A stretch of 64,000 nt of DNA from Gloeobacter morelensis MG652769 (lineage in GTDB: Bacteria > Cyanobacteriota > Cyanobacteriia > Gloeobacterales > Gloeobacteraceae), in assembly GCF_021018745.1 (NCBI RefSeq), contig NZ_CP063845.1:3348001-3412000 (forward strand), read 5' to 3'. Shown here one piece after another: positions 1 to 36,865 of this stretch (the stretch's first letter is position 1; each line of letters opens with the position of its first letter). A program made the translations under genes and the position numbers. The notes below the pieces were generated by a model, which searched no databases, was not told the DNA's origin, and saw only the letters and a list, made by a program, of their open reading frames with translations.

Positions 1-1033
1 TCAAGTTCTCGAAAGGTAGTACGGCAATGGCCCGGCGGGCGGGGGGGACGGCAGCCTGCAACGACCACCATCCGAGGGCCACCGCCAGACAGGCTGCAGC
101 CATTGCCGTTGCCAGCCGCCGGTGGGCACGGATTGGCCGCAGCAGCGTGCCCGTCTGCGGCCACGGCAGAGCCTGGCCCGTCAGGTGGCGCTCGATGGCC
201 AGGGAAAATGCCGCCACCGATCCGAAGCGATCGAGGGGATCTTCGCAGAGCGCCTTGAGCACAAGACTTGCAAGCGGACCGGACAGTTTTCCGGTGAGCG
301 GCTGCGGGTTTGCGTCCCCTGGCCGCCGGCCGCTCAGCAACTCGCACAGCACCACCGCCAGGGAATACTCATCGCTAGCCGGGGTGATCGCTTCGCCTTT
401 GATTTGCTCCGGTGAGGCGTACCCGGGCGTCAAAAGCCGGGTCATCGACTGGCTGAACACGGCGGTGGCCTCAGGGTCGGCGGGCAACAACTTGGCGATC
501 CCAAAATCGAGCAGCCTGGGATTGCCCTCCGTGTCGATCAAAATATTGGCAGGCTTGAGATCGCGGTGGATCACCCGGTGGGCGTGGGCATAGTGCACTG
601 CCTCGCAAACTTTAAGAAACAGCCGCAGCCGTTCGTCTACACCCAGTTTCTGTTTGTTGCAGTAGAGATTGATGGGCTGCCCTTCGACGTAGTCCATCAC
701 CAGATAAGGCATACCCTGCTCGGTGGTGCCGCCGTCGAGCAGACGGGTGATGTACGGATGATCGAGGCTTGCGAGGATCTGCCGCTCGCCGATGAACCGT
801 TCGCGCAAGCCCGGTCCATGCAGTTGCGGTTGGAGAATTTTGACGGCGGCGCGCTTGTCGAACTGGCCGTCGTCGCGCTGCGCCAGGTAGACCGCCCCCA
901 TGCCGCCCCGGCCGAGCGGCCGGATAATCCTGTACGCTCCCAGGCGTTGACCGGCGCTGAGCGGTTCCTCGCCCATCGATTGAGCGGCTGCGCACCGATA
1001 TTCATCGTGCTGCGGTGGTGGTTCGACTGCCAT
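1..1033 (-). CDS. Ser/Thr protein kinase (C-terminal part outside the window)
   Basis: A Hanks-type kinase that phosphorylates Ser/Thr on unknown targets at the membrane. The 344 visible residues start at an ATG preceded by GAGGGG. They show the glycine loop GRGGMGAVY (about 41-49), the AVK lysine (65), the HRDLKPAN catalytic loop (157-163), DFG (177-179) and an SPEQ activation-segment end. A single membrane segment lies at about 308-326. The frame then leaves the window at AIAVLPFENL, a motif that opens TolB/FlgO-like modules in many such receptors, so a periplasmic sensor part is inferred. It is divergent from the small exported protein that follows. Kinase identity is certain; the ligand is unknown. 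Confidence 0.93.
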   Translation of the reverse strand, partial: MAVEPPPQHDEYRCAAAQSMGEEPLSAGQRLGAYRIIRPLGRGGMGAVYLAQRDDGQFDKRAAVKILQPQLHGPGLRERFIGERQILASLDHPYITRLLDGGTTEQGMPYLVMDYVEGQPINLYCNKQKLGVDERLRLFLKVCEAVHYAHAHRVIHRDLKPANILIDTEGNPRLLDFGIAKLLPADPEATAVFSQSMTRLLTPGYASPEQIKGEAITPASDEYSLAVVLCELLSGRRPGDANPQPLTGKLSGPLASLVLKALCEDPLDRFGSVAAFSLAIERHLTGQALPWPQTGTLLRPIRAHRRLATAMAAACLAVALGWWSLQAAVPPARRAIAVLPFENL

Positions 1034-1256
1034 GGTCCCCTCGATGCTCTGTACCCTGTACCGGTGTCCCCCGTACTTAGTACGCCGCCCGGCACCCCAG
1101 CGGGATCTCGATTGCGCCCAACGACCCGCAGGGCAGGGAGAGTTTGCCTAAGGGGCTTCTCATCAAAACTTCACAAAGCGCTCATTGCTGTCCCTGAGTA
1201 TAAAGACATGAGCCCAGAGCGCTCAAAAACACACTTTCAGCCCAGGAGATACCGCC

Positions 1257-1595
1257 ATGTACCGCCGCTTTGCTCCCGTCCTCGCCGCTTTTGCCCTCGT
1301 CGCCTTCTCCGTTCCCGCTTTGGCCGTCGACAAAGGTCTGCGCTCGCAGTACCCCGGCCTGAGCGTCCAACAGGTCAAAGACATCCAGACCGGCAAGACC
1401 GCCGCTCCTACCCTGAGCGCCGAGGGCGGCCGCCTCGGTGGGGTGGTCTTCAGCCCCGGCGCCGAGCAGTGCATCGACAACCCGCGTTTCAACCCGGACA
1501 ACGACGAGAGCGGTCCGCGCGCTTCGGAGCCGTACACCGATTCGACGCCCTACGCGGGCACCGCGACCGCCCTGGCAAGCGTCAACTGCCGCTAA
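1257..1595 (+). CDS. small exported hypothetical protein
   Basis: 112 residues with a clear Sec signal peptide (MYRR, a hydrophobic core, cleavage predicted after PALA at about 23). The mature part of about 90 residues is polar and Asp/Pro/Gly-rich, with two cysteines, one near residue 81 and one next to the C-terminus, that could pair in the periplasm. The start is fixed by CAGGAGA 8 nt upstream. It appears monocistronic: a hairpin terminator follows at 1717. A TATAAA at 1199-1204 could be its -10 box, without a good -35. I do not recognise the family, so no function is proposed. Confidence 0.8.
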   Translation: MYRRFAPVLAAFALVAFSVPALAVDKGLRSQYPGLSVQQVKDIQTGKTAAPTLSAEGGRLGGVVFSPGAEQCIDNPRFNPDNDESGPRASEPYTDSTPYAGTATALASVNCR

Positions 1596-1716
1596 GGGCT
1601 GGAGCCGGGGGTGGCCTTCGCTGCCCCCGGGTATCGGTTGCCCCGTCGGCCGATCAGCGCGGCCGGACAATAGAGTTTTCCTGCCGGATGCGGCGGGTCT
1701 AGCGCTGAAAGGTGAT

Positions 1717-1746
1717 AGGTGAGGCCCCGGTGGGTCTCACCTTTCT
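1717..1746 (+). terminator. hairpin terminator
   Basis: An 11-bp stem with one G-T wobble (arms 1717-1727 and 1732-1742, 4-nt loop) is followed by a T-rich tail. It ends the small exported-protein transcript. It also argues against a GTG start at 1719 for the acetyltransferase, because that codon lies inside the stem. Confidence 0.7.
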
Positions 1747-1808
1747 TGTCAGGCGATCGACGACTCATGGACGCGGCTGGCTACGATGAATCAGCCGATC
1801 AATTCACC

Positions 1809-2438
1809 ATGTCCCTCCGTCCCGCCCTCCCCACCGACAGCCCCGCGATCGCCTACCTGGCCTACCTGGCGAACCGTTCCCACCTGACGTTGGCTCCCTA
1901 CGATCTGTTTTTGCCCGGTGCTTTTGAGCAGCGGCTGGGGGTAATCGAGCAGTTGGTACGCGCCCGCACGGTGACCTGGTTTCACTGGTCGCACTTCGTG
2001 GTGGCCGAGGAACAGCAACAGGTAGCGGCGGTACTCGCCGGTTACGACAGCCGGGCTGTGGGTCTGCACTGCCTGGGTGAAGCACTCTACGAAATCGGTT
2101 GGGGCGAACGGCAAATCGCCGAGTTGAACGAGCGGGTGGAGCCGTTTGAAGGTTGTACTCCGAGCGAAGGGGAACACGCCTGGAGCATCGACCATGTCGC
2201 TACCCTACCCACCTATCGCGATCGCGGTCTGGCAAGCGCGCTGCTTAATCACATGGTCGAAAAGGCCCGCGGCCTGGGTTTCTCAACTGCTCAGCTCAAT
2301 CTCTACATCGGCAATTTTGCCGCCCAGCGGATCTACGAAAAAGCCGGCTTTCAGCTGGTCGAAAAGTGCACCGATCCCGGTTTCGAAGCGGCCCTCGGCT
2401 GTCCGGGGATTGCGCGCATGGTTCTGGCGCTCACGTAG
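1809..2438 (+). CDS. GNAT-family N-acetyltransferase
   Basis: GNAT enzymes move an acetyl group from acetyl-CoA to an amine. The substrate cannot be told here. The acetyl-CoA loop region reads DHVATLPTYRDRGLASALL, matching the family pattern R-x-x-G-x-A/G, and is followed by the typical AQLNLYIGNFAAQRIYEKAGFQLV segment. The start is uncertain. ATG 1809 (MSLRPALPTDSP) begins directly at the domain but lacks a clear ribosome site. ATG 1767 gives 14 more residues. A GTG at 1719 lies inside a terminator stem and is rejected. The gene is convergent with the MFS transporter, 20 bp away. Confidence 0.88.
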   Translation: MSLRPALPTDSPAIAYLAYLANRSHLTLAPYDLFLPGAFEQRLGVIEQLVRARTVTWFHWSHFVVAEEQQQVAAVLAGYDSRAVGLHCLGEALYEIGWGERQIAELNERVEPFEGCTPSEGEHAWSIDHVATLPTYRDRGLASALLNHMVEKARGLGFSTAQLNLYIGNFAAQRIYEKAGFQLVEKCTDPGFEAALGCPGIARMVLALT

Positions 2439-28919: not shown

Positions 28920-28986
28920 TGTCCCTATTCTTTTGTAAGGGCGATACTGTTAAAGCATCGAAGGGAACGAACAGGGTTTGCTGTTG

Positions 28987-29012
28987 ACGACAAATAGCAA
29001 CTTATTTGTCGT
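28987..29012. promoter_or_regulatory. perfect 9-bp inverted repeat upstream of the HDO gene
   Basis: ACGACAAAT at 28987-28995 and ATTTGTCGT at 29004-29012 form a perfect palindrome with an 8-bp spacer, 39 bp before the HDO start. Its place fits an operator overlapping the promoter or a leader-RNA stem. No poly-T tail follows. Confidence 0.5.
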
Positions 29013-29050
29013 TGTTGTGTGCTTGAAAATAAGCGTATTGGGAGCAGAAT

Positions 29051-29974
29051 ATGCAGACGCTTGATGCCTCAGCAAAAGAGCGCCATAGTGCGCAATTGGT
29101 GGTGAGTGTTCATGGTAGCGGCGACGCCCCTTGCCTGCAGGCTGCCGAGGTGATGCGGCAGGTGGCAGCCAGGCGCAAAGGTTCTGTGCAGGTGCTCGCG
29201 TTGCCCCTTGATCCAAGCGCCCCGTTGGGGGAGGCCGACGGATTGCCTGTGATTGCCTTCGGCCAAAGGAAGGTTTATACAGGCTGCCCTACGCTGGAGC
29301 AGGCGGAAGAGCTGATTCGATGTGAAGAAATCGCAAGTCGCGTTTCGAAGTATGCCATCGACAAGAGCGCCGTGGTGCGTCTTTTTGCCGAGGGCGAAGT
29401 GGCCGTCGATCCGGCGGCCCTCGCGCACTACTATCCGATTTCGCTCGACTTTCCGATTTTTTTGGCTAGGGCGATTGGACATGTCCGCGACGAGAATGCC
29501 CGCCTGCTGCTGGTGGGCAACCTCTATGAGGAGCACGGTAATCTCGATGCCAGCCAGACCCATCCTGAGCTATTTCGCAACTATATCCGCGCCCTCGACT
29601 TGAACCCGGATGCGTTTGTCAATCTCGACAATGCGCCCGCCGCCGCGGTTGTCGAGCGCTACAACGCAGTTTGCGCCGAAGGGCCTGATCACCGCGCCCT
29701 TGCGATGCTCTACGGATTTGAAAAACAGTTCAGCCCGATCTGCACGCTGCTTGCCGCCGGGTTGCGCCGACTGGAACTCGACGAGGATGCCGTTCGCTTC
29801 TTCGATGTCCACTCCGAAGTCGACGTCGATCACGCCGAACAGTTGCGCTTCGCACTGTTCGGGGCGTGTGACAGCCCACGCAAATGGGAGGAGGCGCTCG
29901 AAGTCGCGGTCGAAGCGAGCGGGCTGCTTTACCATTTCTTCGATACCACCCTCAAACCCGTCCCGCACGCGTAG
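29051..29974 (+). CDS. thioredoxin-fold / haem-oxygenase-like diiron oxidase (HDO) fusion
   Basis: 307 residues in two parts. Residues 15-95 look like a thioredoxin-type fold without CxxC (LVVSVHGSGDAPCLQ, then LPVIAFGQRKVYTG). Residues 105-300 resemble the TenA/PqqC-like HDO superfamily, with LLLVGNLYEEHGN (Glu160/161, His162), LYGFEKQFSP (Glu224) and FDVHSEVDVDH (His254, Asp258, His261, the H-x3-D-x2-H pattern). Known HDO enzymes use two irons and O2 to oxidise or cleave amino or fatty acids. Substrate unknown. The ligase gene follows 7 nt after the stop. The start follows GGGAGCAG. Confidence 0.72.
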   Translation: MQTLDASAKERHSAQLVVSVHGSGDAPCLQAAEVMRQVAARRKGSVQVLALPLDPSAPLGEADGLPVIAFGQRKVYTGCPTLEQAEELIRCEEIASRVSKYAIDKSAVVRLFAEGEVAVDPAALAHYYPISLDFPIFLARAIGHVRDENARLLLVGNLYEEHGNLDASQTHPELFRNYIRALDLNPDAFVNLDNAPAAAVVERYNAVCAEGPDHRALAMLYGFEKQFSPICTLLAAGLRRLELDEDAVRFFDVHSEVDVDHAEQLRFALFGACDSPRKWEEALEVAVEASGLLYHFFDTTLKPVPHA

Positions 29975-29981
29975 GAATGCC

Positions 29982-31043
29982 ATGGAAAAGCGCAGCTTAT
30001 TCTTCGAGCCGGGTCACCCGAACGCGGTCTCCACCGAACAGCGGGCCGCCTTGCTGCTGGAGGCGGTGCGCGCCCAGGTCGCCTTTGCCCACCGGCATGT
30101 GCCCTTCTGGGCCGATCGGCTGCAAAAACACGGCCTCCCCCCCGCCCTCGACAGCCTCGAAGAATTTGCCGCCCTACCGCCGATGACCAAGGCGGAATTG
30201 CGGCTGCTTTCGCCGTGGGATTTGCTGCCGGACGCCAGTCGAAGCCGTTTGTATCTGTGCCGCGCCACGAGCGGCACGACTGGCGTTCCCGCTTCGTTTT
30301 TTTGGACCCGGCCCGACTGGCAGGCCCTCGCGATGACCCTGGCGGCGCTGCTCGAGATCCACAGGCCACGGACCCTCCTGCAACTGGTCGCCTTCAACGG
30401 CTACCACCAGGGCCACCTGATGGGGCCGGCCTACGACGACGGTCTGCGGCAGATGGGAGCCACCGTCATCCCCCGCCACTACCTGGCCGACGACGAAGCT
30501 TCGACAGTCCAGCAAATCGAAACGTTCGGGTGCAACACCCTGGTACTTGCCCAGCGCTCGGGCCTCAAAAAAAGCGGCAAGACGGTCGAAGATTTGTTGC
30601 GCCACGAGCCGCAGCTGTTCCGCCGCCACGGCATCCGCTGGTGGATAGGTTCGAGCAGCACGTTTACTCCCGAGTTGCGCGAGCGTGCCTGCGGGCAGGG
30701 GGCAACCGTCACCAACCTCTACGGCTCTTCTGAATTCGGCACCCTCGGGATCGCCTGCCGGGAGCACCCGGAGGAATTTCACCTGGCTTTGGGGCATGTC
30801 TACGTCGAGATCGTCGATGCCCGGGGGCGACCGGTGATGGCGGGACGCCGGGGTCGGGTAGTCATCACCCGCCTGCTCGGGCACGACCAGCAGCGGGGAG
30901 CTGTTCCCCAGGCGGGCTCGCAACTGTTGCGCCTCGACAACGGCGACGAAGCGCTTTTGGTGGATACAGCTTGTACCTGCGGGCTTACAACCCCCCGCAT
31001 CCGCGACATCGGTCGGGGTGGGGCGGCCGGGGCCGGGTTTTGA
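29982..31043 (+). CDS. PaaK-like AMP-forming ligase lacking the C-terminal lid domain
   Basis: 353 residues. It adenylates a carboxylic acid with ATP. The P-loop CRATSGTTGVPASFF, the NLYGSSEFG motif and the late CTCGLTTPRIRDIGR hinge match phenylacetate-CoA ligase/coenzyme-F390-synthetase-like proteins. After the hinge the protein stops within 7 residues (GGAAGAGF), where relatives continue for about 90-100 residues that form the mobile lid needed for the thioester step. A strong terminator follows directly. ATG 29982 lies 7 nt after the HDO stop, so the pair is co-transcribed and probably works on the same substrate. Confidence 0.82.
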   Translation: MEKRSLFFEPGHPNAVSTEQRAALLLEAVRAQVAFAHRHVPFWADRLQKHGLPPALDSLEEFAALPPMTKAELRLLSPWDLLPDASRSRLYLCRATSGTTGVPASFFWTRPDWQALAMTLAALLEIHRPRTLLQLVAFNGYHQGHLMGPAYDDGLRQMGATVIPRHYLADDEASTVQQIETFGCNTLVLAQRSGLKKSGKTVEDLLRHEPQLFRRHGIRWWIGSSSTFTPELRERACGQGATVTNLYGSSEFGTLGIACREHPEEFHLALGHVYVEIVDARGRPVMAGRRGRVVITRLLGHDQQRGAVPQAGSQLLRLDNGDEALLVDTACTCGLTTPRIRDIGRGGAAGAGF

Positions 31044-31050
31044 ACCCAAA

Positions 31051-31080
31051 AAAGCGGCGCACCGACCGGTGCGCCGCTTT
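31051..31080. terminator. bidirectional hairpin terminator
   Basis: A perfect 13-bp stem (31051-31063 and 31068-31080) with a GACC loop; A-run on the left and T-run on the right. It separates the ligase gene (plus) from the protease gene (minus) and can stop transcription from both sides. Confidence 0.85.
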
Positions 31081-31100: not shown

Positions 31101-33902
31101 CTACGGCAGCGGCGCGTTCACGGCCGCCTCGGCGTTGATAAAGCCGAAGCCGTCCAGAGTCGAATAGCCCTTGCCGATTTTGTTGGTGAACACCCCGCTA
31201 AGCTGAGCGCCCGAGGCGAGGGTGCCGGTGAAGGTGACCCCGCCGGCGACGACGGTCCCCTGCGGAATCAGCACCCCGTCGCCGAGCAGGTCGGCGGAGT
31301 TGCCGCCCGCCGCCGAGGGCGGATTGAAGGCGGTCGGAAATTCGTCGCGATCGATGCCGAAGGTCAGCAGGCTGCCGGGGCCGAACATGCCGGGGGTGAG
31401 GGTGACGGCCAGCGTGCTCGATTGGCCTGCCGCACCCGGTGAGGGCGGCGTCGGCCCGAGGGTGCCGGTGACGTCGGAGGCACTCAGGCCGCGGGTGATC
31501 CCGACCGTAAACGGCAAACCGGAGCCGTCGCGCGAGTCGAAGACCAGACCTGGATCGCTGGTGGCCCCGGTGGGATTGCCGGTGGTGCCGTCCAGGGTGA
31601 AGCGCTCCAGGCTGCCCGCGCCGGTGAAAGTGACCCGGAAGAAGTTCGGATCGGTCTGGGAGGTGAGGCTGCCGTCGCCCACCGCCTTGAAGGTGACCCG
31701 CGCACCGCCCAGGCGCACAAGGCCGCTGGCGAAGTACGGGTCGAGGTCGTGGGGGAAGGCGCTCTGCTGGAGGATCGTCTTCATCTGGGCGGGGGTCACC
31801 GAGAAAGGACCGCCGTTTTTGTCGAGCACCAGCGCGGCGATGGCGGCGGCGTGGGGGGCGGCGGCGCTGGTGCCAAAAAAGTTCGCGAAGCGGTCCGGAT
31901 CGGCAGTGCTGTCGCCCACCGAAGGCACCGGCGAGGGGAAGAAGGTGTTGTTGGCGCCGTCCATGGCGGCCATGTCGGGCTTGAGGCGCACCTCAGGGAC
32001 CGGCAGGCGGTTGCCTGCAGTGTCGAAGAAGATCGTCACCGGACCGCCGGAGGTGAAGCTTTCGGGGATAAACGGCGGGAAGAAGGCGTAGGCCGCTACT
32101 CCATTGCCGCCCGCCGCCGAGTTGTGGCCGAAGGTGACCGGGTAGTCGTAGGCGAAGTATTCGGTCGGTTCGCCCGTGGTGAACCAGACGTAGCGCAATT
32201 TGCTCGCCGGGGTGGGCGAAGGAGCCGGGGTGTTGGCCCGGGCGATCACCAGTTGCACCGTATCGAGGCCCGACAGCCCCGCCAGTTCTAGAGGCCGGTT
32301 GGCGCCGATATTGTTGGTGGCTGCGGCACCGATAAAGTTGCCGTCCACGTCAAAAAACAGCGCGTTGAAATCAGAAGTAACCGGCAGGGCGCCGGTAATT
32401 TCGTTGGCGGTGATCGTAAACGGCCCAGTGTCGCCCTGGAAACCGGAAACCTCGACCGTGTACGTCCCGGCGACATCGGCGGTAAACCCGAGCACCTCGG
32501 GGCTGGTGCCGGTGTCGATCGTCTGCAGGACTGTACCCGCCGGATCTCTAAGCGTCAGCACGATGTCGAGATCCCCCGAGGGCACGCCGTCTGCAAAGAC
32601 CTGCACGGATTGTCCGGCACCCACGGCAATCGGGAAACTGGCCACCGGCTGGGCGGCGGTGATCGTGCCGCTGCTGTCGAGCAGCGTCTCGCCCAGGGGA
32701 ATTTCCGCGTCGTAGGGGTCGTCCCACTGCAGCACCAGCGTGCCGCCCGCCGCCGGGTCGAGGCGGATCGACTGGGCAATATCGAGTCCTTGGGGGTTGA
32801 AGTTGTGGAAGCCCCCGGCGTACAGCGCACTGGGGATGCCCGCGAGCTTGATGTTGGTGCCCGCCAGGGCGGCGGGGGCGGCCGGTACCAGCCTCAAGTC
32901 CGAGAAGTACGCCTGGGTGGAAGGCCGGTTGCCGGCCGAGGAGAAGTAGGCCACACCCTGGGCGGCCACCTCGTCCACCGCCTGGGCGATGATGCCGTCG
33001 GTAAAGAACGGTTCAGACAGATAGATGATGTCGTCCACAATCACGCTGGCACCACACCCCAGGGTCGGATCGGCGAGATTGCGGATGTTGTTGGCGAAAT
33101 TCACCTCGCCGCCGGTGGCGGTGGCAAAGCACAGCTTCGCCTTGGGAGCGAGGTCGTGGATAATCTGCAGCATCGCCCGGCCCTCGTCGATGTCATCGGA
33201 GGCGCCGTCCTGGAGCACCACCACCGGTTGGGCGTTGTTCGGATTGCCCGGGCCGGGCAGATCGCCCGAGGCGACGTCGTCCGCCGCCCGGATAGTGAGC
33301 GGAAAACCGCCCAGATCCACTGCAGCCGTATCGTAGCTGTCGGAGAGGGCGCCCACGGTGATGCCGCCGCCGTCGATACCGGCGGGGAGCTTGTCCACCC
33401 GGTGCTGGACGACGCCCTGGCTGGTGGTGGCCCCCACATCGGTGACCGGCCGGGGTACCAGGTGCACCGCCGAAACCCCCGGTAGCCCCGCCAGCTTCGC
33501 GACCAGGGCGGGCGGCACGAACGCCTCGAAGACCCCGGCGCGGTAGCGGTCGCTCTCGGCGGTGATGCGCAGATCTTGCCAGTCGGTTCTGCCCTGCAGG
33601 GTGCGTTTGATCCCGGAGAGCGACTGCTTGCGGTTGAGGTGCACCGAGACCAGCACCCGGTTTTGTTTGTCGAACTGGGCCAGTTTGGTGAAATTCAAGC
33701 CGCGCCGGACGGCGGTCCGATTGAGCTGCCCCTTCTGCGCCTCGAACTGCTGGAGAAGCGGGGCGAGACCGGCGCCCAGATTGGCAGGCAGGCCAGAGGG
33801 TTTGGCCAGGGCAGGCGACACCGCCACGCCGAGGCCGAGGGCCAGACACGATGCGACAAAGCTCGTGCGGCGGGTGCTGGAGGGTAGAAAAAGTCGATGC
33901 AT
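31101..33902 (-). CDS. secreted S53/S8-like serine protease, copy 1
   Basis: 933 residues with a signal peptide (TSFVASCLALGLGVAVSPALA). The catalytic domain has ITVGALSDSYDT, DEGRAMLQIIHDLAPKAKLCFATA, the oxyanion region GASVIVDDIIYL and the Ser motif FFGTSAAAPHAAAIAAL. A Glu (DEGRAM) stands where subtilisins have the catalytic His, closer to the Glu/Asp/Ser set of sedolisins. The rest is beta-rich: a pre-peptidase C-terminal-like segment (GDLDIVLTLRDPAGTVLQTIDTG) is inserted and a C-terminal module ends at GFGFINAEAAVNAPLP. ATG 33902 directly opens the signal peptide. It is a tandem paralogue of the next gene. Confidence 0.87.
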   Translation of the reverse strand: MHRLFLPSSTRRTSFVASCLALGLGVAVSPALAKPSGLPANLGAGLAPLLQQFEAQKGQLNRTAVRRGLNFTKLAQFDKQNRVLVSVHLNRKQSLSGIKRTLQGRTDWQDLRITAESDRYRAGVFEAFVPPALVAKLAGLPGVSAVHLVPRPVTDVGATTSQGVVQHRVDKLPAGIDGGGITVGALSDSYDTAAVDLGGFPLTIRAADDVASGDLPGPGNPNNAQPVVVLQDGASDDIDEGRAMLQIIHDLAPKAKLCFATATGGEVNFANNIRNLADPTLGCGASVIVDDIIYLSEPFFTDGIIAQAVDEVAAQGVAYFSSAGNRPSTQAYFSDLRLVPAAPAALAGTNIKLAGIPSALYAGGFHNFNPQGLDIAQSIRLDPAAGGTLVLQWDDPYDAEIPLGETLLDSSGTITAAQPVASFPIAVGAGQSVQVFADGVPSGDLDIVLTLRDPAGTVLQTIDTGTSPEVLGFTADVAGTYTVEVSGFQGDTGPFTITANEITGALPVTSDFNALFFDVDGNFIGAAATNNIGANRPLELAGLSGLDTVQLVIARANTPAPSPTPASKLRYVWFTTGEPTEYFAYDYPVTFGHNSAAGGNGVAAYAFFPPFIPESFTSGGPVTIFFDTAGNRLPVPEVRLKPDMAAMDGANNTFFPSPVPSVGDSTADPDRFANFFGTSAAAPHAAAIAALVLDKNGGPFSVTPAQMKTILQQSAFPHDLDPYFASGLVRLGGARVTFKAVGDGSLTSQTDPNFFRVTFTGAGSLERFTLDGTTGNPTGATSDPGLVFDSRDGSGLPFTVGITRGLSASDVTGTLGPTPPSPGAAGQSSTLAVTLTPGMFGPGSLLTFGIDRDEFPTAFNPPSAAGGNSADLLGDGVLIPQGTVVAGGVTFTGTLASGAQLSGVFTNKIGKGYSTLDGFGFINAEAAVNAPLP

Positions 33903-34012
33903 ACAGGTGATTCCACGCTTTGGGCAGAACCGCAGGATTATATAGGCCGCCTCCAGCCGAAATCTAGTGGGCTCTGTTACCGCGAGGCCGGCTCGGCCCG
34001 TGCAAAGAAGGC

Positions 34013-34037
34013 GGGCCACCGCTTTGGACGGTGGCCC
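34013..34037 (-). terminator. hairpin terminator of protease copy 2
   Basis: A perfect 9-bp stem (34013-34021 and 34029-34037) with a 7-nt loop, downstream of the second protease on its strand and followed by a modest T-rich stretch (TTCTTT). It separates the two tandem proteases, so they are probably not one transcript. Confidence 0.6.
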
Positions 34038-34078: not shown

Positions 34079-36865
34079 CTACGGCAGCGGCGCGTTCACC
34101 GCCGCCTCGGCGTTGATGAAGCCGAAGCCGTCGAGGGGCGTGTAGCCGGCGCCGATCTGGTTGGTGAAGACACCGCTGAAGCTCTGGCCGGAGCCGAGGG
34201 TACCGGTGAAGGTGACCCCGCCGACGGCTACTGTGCCCTGGGGAATCAGCACCCCGTCGCCCAACAGGTCGGCGGAGTTGCCGCCCGCCGCCGAAGGCGG
34301 GTTGAAGGCGGTCGGCAACTCGTCGCGGTCGATGCCGAAGGTGAAGAAATCGCCGCCGCCGAACACGCCGGGGGTGAGGGTGACCGCGAGGGTACTCGAT
34401 TGACCTGCCACCGCCGGGGCCGGTGGGGTGGGTCCGAGGGTGCCGGCGACGTCGGACGCACTGAGTCCCCGGACGTTGCCGACGGTGAAGGGGAAGCCGG
34501 GAGGCGAGGTGGCTGCCGTGCGCGAATCGAAGACCAGGCCCGGATCGGCGGAAGCGCCGGTGGGATTGCCGGTGGTGCCGTCCAGGGTAAAGCCGCTCAC
34601 AGTGCCCAGGCCCGCGACCCCGACGCGGAAGAAATTCGGATCGACCTGGGAGGTGAAGCTGCCGTCGCCCACGGCCCTAAACGAGATGCGCGTAGCGCCC
34701 GCCACGGCCACACCGCTTGCCAGGTACGGGTCGAGGTCGTGGGGGAAGGCGCTCTGCTGCAAGATCGTGCGCATCTGAGCCGGGGTGACCGAGAAAGGTC
34801 CGCCGTTTTTTTGCAGCACCAGCGCGGCGATGGCCGCGGCGTGGGGGGCGGCGGCGCTGGTGCCAAAAAAGTTCGGGAAGCGGTCCAGATCGGCGCTGCT
34901 ATCGGAGGTGAAAAAGGTCGTGTTCGCCCCGTCCATCGCGGCCATATCGGGCTTCTGGCGCACTTCGGGGGTGGGCAGGCGATTGCCTTCGGTGTCGAAG
35001 AAGATCGTCACCGGCCCCGGCGAGGTGAAGCTTTCGGGGATAAACGGCGGGAAGAAGGCGTAGGCCGCCACCCCGTTGCCGCCCGCCGCCGAGTTGTGGC
35101 CGAAGGTGACCGGGTAGTCGTAGGCGAAGTACTCGGTGGGCGAACCGGAAGTAAACCAGACGTAGCGCAGTTTGCTCGCCGGGGTGGGCGAAGGGGCCGG
35201 GGTATTGGCGCGGGCAATCACCATCTGCAACGTGCCCGTGATGGTGGTCGCCAACAGTTCTAGAGGTCGGTTGCCGGCAATGTTGTCGGTGGCCGAGGCG
35301 AACAGGAAGTTGCCGTTGGTGTCAAAGAACAGCAAGTTGAAGTCGGAGGTGACCGGGACGGAACCGGATACTTCGTTGACGACGACCGTGAACGGTCCGG
35401 TGTCGCCTTCAAAACCGGTAATCCGGATGGTGTAGGTGCCCGTCTGGGCGAGGGTGGCGGCGTAAATTTCGGGGCTGGTGCCGGTGTCGATGGTGGCCAG
35501 CACCGTGCCGTCGGGGGCGATGAACGTCAGCACAATGTCGAGATCGCCCGAGGGCACGCCGTCGGCGGTGATTTTGATCGCCTGTCCGGCGGTACCGGCA
35601 AAGGGAATATCTGCCACCGGTTGGGCAGCGGTGATCTCCCCGGCGGTACTGAGCAGTTCCGGACCCTCTTCGATAGGTGCGTCGTAGGGGTCATCCCACT
35701 GGAAGCTGATCGTGCCGCCGCCGCTTAGCGAAATCGGCTGGGCGATGTCGAGCCCGCGCGGGTTGAAGTTATGAAAGCCCCCGGCGTAGAGGGCTGGATC
35801 GATGCCGGTGAGCTTGATGTTGGTACCGGCGAGCGAACTGGTCGTGGGTGCCACCAGCCGCAGATCCGACAGATAGGCCTGGGTGGAGGGCCGGTTGCCG
35901 GCCGAGGAGAAGTAGGGCACCCCCAAAGCGGCCACATCGTCCACCGCCTGGGCGATGACCCCGTCGGTGAAAAACGGTTCATCCAGGTAGATGATGTCAT
36001 CGACGATCACGCTGGCACCACAACCCAGGGTCGGATCGGCAAGGCCCCGGATGTTGTTGGCAAAACCCACCTGCCCGCCGAAGGCGGTCGCAAAGCACAG
36101 CTTCGCCTTGGGAGCGAGGTCGTGGATAATCTGCAGCATCGCCCGGCCCTCGTCGATGCCCGCACCATCCAGTTCTTCGAGCACGAATATCGGCTCGGTG
36201 TTGCCCAGCGGGTTACCGGGACCGGGCAGATCGCCGGTGGCGATGTCGTTGGCTGCTTTGACCGGGTTGGTGGAGGTGTTGTAGCTGTCGGAGAGCACGC
36301 CCACGGTGATGCCGCTGCCGTCGATACCGGCGGGGAGCTTGTCCACCCGGTGCTGGACGACGCCCTGGCTGGTGGTGGCCCCCACATCGGTGACCGGCCG
36401 GGGTACCAGGTGCACTGCTGAGACCGACCGCAATCCGGCTAGTTTGGAGACCGCCGCTACCGGCACGAACGCTTCGACGATCGCGGCGCGCGTGCGATCA
36501 CTCTCGGCGGTGATGCGCAGATCTTTGAGATCGTTTCTGCCCTGTACGGTGCGCTTGAATTCAGCCAACGGCCAGCCGCGCTTCAGGTGAATCGCCACCT
36601 GCACGCGCTGCTGCTTGTCGAAGATGGCGAGCCTGGTGTAATCGGCACCGAAGCGGGAAGCGGTGCGATCAAGGGCGCCGCGGTTGGCGTTGTAGCGCTC
36701 GACAAGTTGGCCGAGGCCGCCGCCGAGATTGGCGGGCACACCGCCCGGGCGGGCATGGGCGGGGGCGGCGGCACAGGCGACACCCAGGCCGAGCGCCAGC
36801 AATGCAGCGGCAAAAACCGTCGAGCGCACCGTTGGCGGTGAGGAGGGTCGGTTGGTAGGAAGCAT
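34079..36865 (-). CDS. secreted S53/S8-like serine protease, copy 2
   Basis: 928 residues, clearly paralogous to the protease at 31101-33902 over its full length. It has the same signal peptide layout (VFAAALLALGLGVACAAAPAHA), DSYNT aspartate, DEGRAMLQIIHDLAPKAK, GTSAAAPHAAAIAAL serine and C-terminal GFGFINAEAAVNAPLP. Differences concentrate in loops such as the 60 residues after the aspartate and the segment before the serine, where copy 2 is shorter. It would degrade proteins outside the cell or in the periplasm. ATG 36865 opens the signal peptide, without a good ribosome site. Confidence 0.87.
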   Translation of the reverse strand: MLPTNRPSSPPTVRSTVFAAALLALGLGVACAAAPAHARPGGVPANLGGGLGQLVERYNANRGALDRTASRFGADYTRLAIFDKQQRVQVAIHLKRGWPLAEFKRTVQGRNDLKDLRITAESDRTRAAIVEAFVPVAAVSKLAGLRSVSAVHLVPRPVTDVGATTSQGVVQHRVDKLPAGIDGSGITVGVLSDSYNTSTNPVKAANDIATGDLPGPGNPLGNTEPIFVLEELDGAGIDEGRAMLQIIHDLAPKAKLCFATAFGGQVGFANNIRGLADPTLGCGASVIVDDIIYLDEPFFTDGVIAQAVDDVAALGVPYFSSAGNRPSTQAYLSDLRLVAPTTSSLAGTNIKLTGIDPALYAGGFHNFNPRGLDIAQPISLSGGGTISFQWDDPYDAPIEEGPELLSTAGEITAAQPVADIPFAGTAGQAIKITADGVPSGDLDIVLTFIAPDGTVLATIDTGTSPEIYAATLAQTGTYTIRITGFEGDTGPFTVVVNEVSGSVPVTSDFNLLFFDTNGNFLFASATDNIAGNRPLELLATTITGTLQMVIARANTPAPSPTPASKLRYVWFTSGSPTEYFAYDYPVTFGHNSAAGGNGVAAYAFFPPFIPESFTSPGPVTIFFDTEGNRLPTPEVRQKPDMAAMDGANTTFFTSDSSADLDRFPNFFGTSAAAPHAAAIAALVLQKNGGPFSVTPAQMRTILQQSAFPHDLDPYLASGVAVAGATRISFRAVGDGSFTSQVDPNFFRVGVAGLGTVSGFTLDGTTGNPTGASADPGLVFDSRTAATSPPGFPFTVGNVRGLSASDVAGTLGPTPPAPAVAGQSSTLAVTLTPGVFGGGDFFTFGIDRDELPTAFNPPSAAGGNSADLLGDGVLIPQGTVAVGGVTFTGTLGSGQSFSGVFTNQIGAGYTPLDGFGFINAEAAVNAPLP

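Follow-up and report, generated by a model that had tools for sequence, protein, structure and literature searches.

A Gloeobacter operon encoding a predicted thioredoxin-like/HDO protein and a lidless PaaK-type adenylating enzyme

Organization of the operon and its surroundings

The window analyzed in this work is a stretch of 64,000 nucleotides (C1:3348001-3412000) from a 5.10-Mb Gloeobacter genome. It contains two genes carried by the plus strand and separated by only 7 nt, the first encoding a protein of the heme-oxygenase-like dimetal oxidase (HDO) superfamily and the second a ligase. This operon layout had been correctly described in the original prediction, which was made by reading this DNA alone. 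The features on which the analysis relies are the following, with positions counted in the window.

28986..29013, plus strand: inverted repeat CGACAAATA...TATTTGTCG, located 37 bp before the start codon of the HDO gene (dG -12.3 kcal/mol, z -3.05)
29051..29974, plus strand: gene of a 307-aa protein with a thioredoxin-like (Trx-like) domain and an HDO domain (PF14518, E 3.3e-31; alignment; 95% identical ortholog in the sister species G001)
29084..29350, plus strand: predicted Trx-like N-terminal domain, about aa 12-100, in which DAPC (aa 25-28) replaces CxxC (single-sequence AlphaFold model; VIA Z 9.6-10.0)
29420..29911, plus strand: HDO domain delimited by PF14518, aa 124-287, with metal ligands E161, H171, E224, H254, D258 and H261
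29982..31043, plus strand, start ATG 29982: gene of a 353-aa lidless enzyme, probably an adenylating enzyme of the PaaK type (AlphaFold pTM 0.82; VIA Z 32.7 to PaaK2; stop 8 aa past the hinge Gly-Arg)
31051..31080, no strand assigned: strong hairpin separating the ligase gene from a convergent subtilase gene, with a T-run on the minus strand

A longer open reading frame of 477 aa, starting at position 29610, was not accepted as the real start of the ligase; it overlaps the HDO gene. The inverted repeat at 28986-29013, a candidate operator or leader hairpin, is largely kept in the sister species and lies in an intergenic region of 690 bp that is relatively AT-rich (46% GC). A terminator had also been proposed immediately after the ligase gene. 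A hairpin is indeed present at this place, but its T-run is on the minus strand. The most fitting interpretation is thus a terminator serving the convergent subtilase gene, possibly shared.

Two subtilase-like paralogs are found in tandem on the minus strand (31101-34019 and 34079-36865). Their DNA is about 75-77% alike, and Peptidase_S8 and PPC domains are present in the first one. None of the flanking genes that were read points to a pathway, no nucleophile-making or tailoring gene was recognized near the operon, and the search for phage or defence families gave no match.

Domain analysis of the two proteins

The PF14518 profile matches the HDO protein with 108.9 bits, far above its curated cut-off of 28.9. 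In the alignment with relatives, the six metal-ligand columns (three His and three carboxylates) are all filled. The HDO signatures noticed in the original prediction are thus confirmed, and the absence of metal ligands, which had been named as the observation that could overturn it, was not encountered. The first Glu and the following His are spaced by 10 residues, as are the DtpC ligands E143 and H153 (PMC13232832). In the single-sequence AlphaFold model, which is poor overall (pLDDT 44), the HDO region is helical, but with a pLDDT below 50. The models of individual HDO families remain below their cut-offs, with 62 bits for TIGR04305 (CADD; cut-off 200) and 23 bits for the BesC model NF042919 (cut-off 500). 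In a tree of 33 rows, the Gloeobacter protein falls outside the CADD-like clade (support 96/98); its branch is long and its exact position uncertain. Elsewhere, an HDO domain followed by a C-terminal extension, cupin-like by eye, was observed in the open reading frame 970-2400 (minus strand) of locus L012 in genome G018.

The N-terminal domain of the same protein gave no match in a Pfam search. Phmmer retrieved a chain of thioredoxin z (7asw) as a weak match, with E 0.05, in which DAPC is aligned with CGPC. Residues 11-90 form the fair part of the AlphaFold model (block means of pLDDT 61-88), and the predicted order of secondary structures over residues 16-100 is b-a-b-b-b-a. With Foldseek and VIA, this portion of the model retrieves thioredoxins (Z 9.6 over 83 residues) and the fold-switched KaiB (Z 10.0), which are tied. 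A thioredoxin fold is therefore predicted for this domain, in line with the CxxC-less thioredoxin-type domain that had been announced. Indeed, the motif reads DAPC in the genome under study and DTLC in the sister species. As C28 is its only Cys kept, dithiol exchange via this motif is not expected.

Profile searches place the second protein close to known families without reaching any of them: PF00501 is just under its cut-off, the PaaK models are sub-threshold, and the best NCBIfam match, NF045666 (DVU_1553 family), scores 88.8 bits, below its cut-off of 300. The AlphaFold model, which had been suggested as a check, shows the fold of the PaaK N-terminal domain, and the alignment by VIA with PaaK2 extends over chain residues 6-338 of 432. 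Sequence and model together assign the ligase to the PaaK group of ANL enzymes. Its ATP-site motifs A3, A5 and A7 are kept (TSGTTGxP, YGxSE and D322), as is the hinge G344-R345.

The protein then ends with DIGR-GGAAGAGF, 8 residues past the hinge Gly-Arg, and the same stop is found in the sister species. The C-terminal lid (about 110 aa) is absent, as had been claimed, whereas nearly all full-length relatives possess it among the matches listed for the best 80 relatives across GTDB; the shorter ones are chains that end at contig ends, chains otherwise interrupted, or a few shorter frames. No stand-alone PaaK lid (PF14535) exceeding the family cut-off exists in the genome, where two weak matches sit in frames of 589 and 1800 aa. 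The DVU_1553 family was considered as a lidless family and rejected, since in the two members examined the chain extends beyond the hinge region by about 100 aa. Finally, 59 near-invariant PaaK positions are changed in the ligase, and the pocket stretches YGYGLFTGG and GAEPW are among those replaced. The substrate is therefore probably not phenylacetate.

Conservation and distribution of the pair

In the sister Gloeobacter species (G001), both genes are intact and adjacent, their products being 95% (HDO protein) and 97% (ligase) identical to those of the genome under study. The comparison of these two genomes reveals purifying selection on the HDO domain (dN/dS 0.064, p 7e-9) and on the ligase (0.17, p 4e-7), and a weaker one on the N-terminal domain (0.39, p 0.05). 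Owing to this selection, the ligase, although lidless, cannot be regarded as a newly formed pseudogene. In a third genome (G002), only remnants subsist, namely residues 17-103 and 215-267 of the HDO protein and 331-353 of the ligase, joined by internal deletions. In this genome, at a contig end (locus L023), the HDO remnant continues, in the same frame, an unrelated start that resembles a signal peptide, and this junction suggests deletion and rearrangement at the locus. The pair is absent from G003 and from the other Gloeobacterales sampled.

Outside the genus, no ligase ortholog was detected in 244 Cyanobacteriota genomes, and neither the Trx-HDO fusion nor the pair was found when the HDO protein was sought in 292 Cyanobacteriota genomes and four samples of other phyla (Pseudomonadota, Chloroflexota, Acidobacteriota and the phylum of the deltaproteobacterium L106). 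The matches of the HDO protein outside the genus cover the HDO domain only, and none extends before about residue 80. A peptide scan of GTDB contigs for the HDO protein returned 37 pattern matches, in none of which a relative was confirmed. Near the best 80 relatives of the ligase, the only HDO-like open reading frame among the matches listed is a weak one (locus L062, E 0.0056). Nothing close was present in the viral contigs and plasmids searched, and no HDO-ligase pair or Trx-HDO fusion was found in the literature searched.

This pairing had been announced as unrecognized, and it was encountered nowhere else in these genomes or papers. Full-lid relatives had been evoked as a possible objection; none of those among the matches listed carries the pair. 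The survey of genome neighborhoods proposed at the same time shows that the pair is kept, and under purifying selection, in the sister species, but it is confined to one genus and decayed or lost in two of the four genomes. Its conservation is consequently shallow, and with a distribution restricted to a single genus, co-conservation constitutes weak evidence for a shared function. The pair is real, rare, conserved between two species and made of known parts.

A possible pathway and its relation to known systems

The absence of a lid is not a novelty in itself: adenylating enzymes that naturally lack it have been described before, EhpF being the one matched here. EhpF belongs to phenazine biosynthesis, its substrate being a phenazine acid. 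Its C-terminal domain is reportedly absent, and the adenylate is said to have been proposed to pass directly to a partner enzyme; we know of no HDO among its partners. EhpF (PDB 3hgu, 3hgv, 3l2k) is the nearest structural precedent for a naturally lidless enzyme, and the model of the Gloeobacter ligase aligns with these structures by VIA with Z 19.5-19.9 (19.9 over 294 residues, 16% identity). The title of the EhpF paper presents it as an atypical ANL member.

The leading interpretation, quite possible though far from assured, is that the operon specifies one small-molecule pathway. In it, an EhpF-like lidless ligase would make an acyl-adenylate, and its partner, the Trx-HDO oxidase, would use this adenylate directly. 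The intact N-terminal domain of the ligase would bind ATP and a carboxylic acid and produce the adenylate. With no lid, no CoA or carrier thioester would be formed, and the adenylate would pass directly, in the manner suggested for EhpF, to the co-encoded HDO, a putative O2-activating enzyme with six ligands for two metals. The CxxC-less Trx-like domain would most likely serve as a docking module. The possible coupling of an adenylate to O2-dependent oxidation, put forward in the original prediction, fits the anatomy of both proteins. This interpretation is favored by the complete set of HDO ligands, the retained ATP-site motifs, the ligase model ending in register with EhpF, the stop shared with the sister species, the purifying selection, the lack of a stand-alone lid over the cut-off in the genome and the 7-nt spacing. 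The low confidence of the modeled HDO region, the replaced pocket residues, the flanking genes that point to no pathway and the restriction to one genus weigh against it. The lid lysine of ANL enzymes normally speeds adenylation and is missing from lidless ones; the activity of the ligase may therefore be weak. In a bolder version, which we regard as a long shot, the Trx-like domain would replace the missing lid in trans by docking on the ligase and closing its site, and an acyl group bound to the conserved Cys28 as a thioester would be oxidized by the HDO domain.

In the main rival, oxidation comes first and the ligase then forms an amide or an ester. In this reverse order, the HDO would convert an amino or fatty acid into an unusual acid, which the ligase would adenylate for direct attack by an amine or hydroxyl. 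Such a direct attack on the adenylate takes place in NatL2, AjiA1 and ClxA, which are PaaK-like benzoxazole ligases. The best PDB sequence matches of the Gloeobacter ligase are AjiA1 and NatL2-type entries, and the HDOs characterized so far, only about a dozen, have mainly fatty or amino acids as substrates (PMC13108848). The benzoxazole ligases are longer, however (401-437 aa), and a gene able to make the nucleophile or to tailor the product was not recognized near the operon. The reverse order seems somewhat unlikely.

We consider it less probable still that the ligase no longer adenylates and has become a binding or regulatory partner holding substrate or nucleotide for the HDO. The loss of the lid with its lysine and the 59 changed PaaK positions would be explained in this way, but the intact ATP-site motifs and the purifying selection acting on the gene speak against it. 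A chance adjacency of two unrelated genes decaying across the genus would account for the remnants in G002 and for their absence from G003; the presence of both genes in the two other genomes, intact, next to each other and subject to purifying selection, makes it improbable. Lastly, a disguised CADD-type self-sacrificing p-aminobenzoate (pABA) synthase next to an unrelated ligase is very improbable. The HDO protein does find its best NCBIfam match in CADD and its best PDB matches in pABA synthases, but V and L occupy the columns where Tyr27, which is sacrificed, and Lys152, the amine donor, would be expected (PMC11965152), residues that disfavor this chemistry, the Glu-His spacing is 10 instead of 7 in CADD-like relatives, and the protein stands outside their clade.

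Should the direct use of the adenylate by the Trx-HDO protein be verified, the operon would give a minimal and testable case in which O2 chemistry is combined with activation as an acyl-adenylate and neither CoA nor a carrier protein takes part, in a genus of early-branching cyanobacteria. HDOs do rare O2 chemistry (PMC13108848).

Each half of the operon can be set beside known systems. The CADD and NePabS pABA synthases belong to the same HDO superfamily as the Gloeobacter protein, which differs from them by the lack of Tyr27/Lys152 equivalents, by its longer Glu-His spacing and by its extra Trx-like domain. Four cyanobacterial HDOs (L184, L185, L186 and L188, from G148, G230, G093 and G014, respectively) have the same 10-residue spacing and ligand pattern; they are about 32-34% identical to the Gloeobacter HDO, but possess neither a Trx domain nor a ligase. 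In these four genomes, the HDO gene adjoins a methyltransferase-like gene, and nearby is a gene that begins with MYGLVNKAI(Q/E)DMVC and resembles H-NOX by eye, followed by a sensor-like gene. This conserved cluster is possibly another orphan HDO pathway. On the ligase side, beyond the DVU_1553 match already mentioned, the N-domain fold and the ATP motifs are common to the Gloeobacter enzyme and to PaaK1, PaaK2, AjiA1, NatL2 and ClxA, from which it is distinguished by the missing lid and the replaced pocket residues. EhpF, a stand-alone ANL enzyme of D-alanylgriseoluteic acid biosynthesis, has a chain that ends in register with the Gloeobacter ligase; the latter is far closer to PaaK (Z 32.7).
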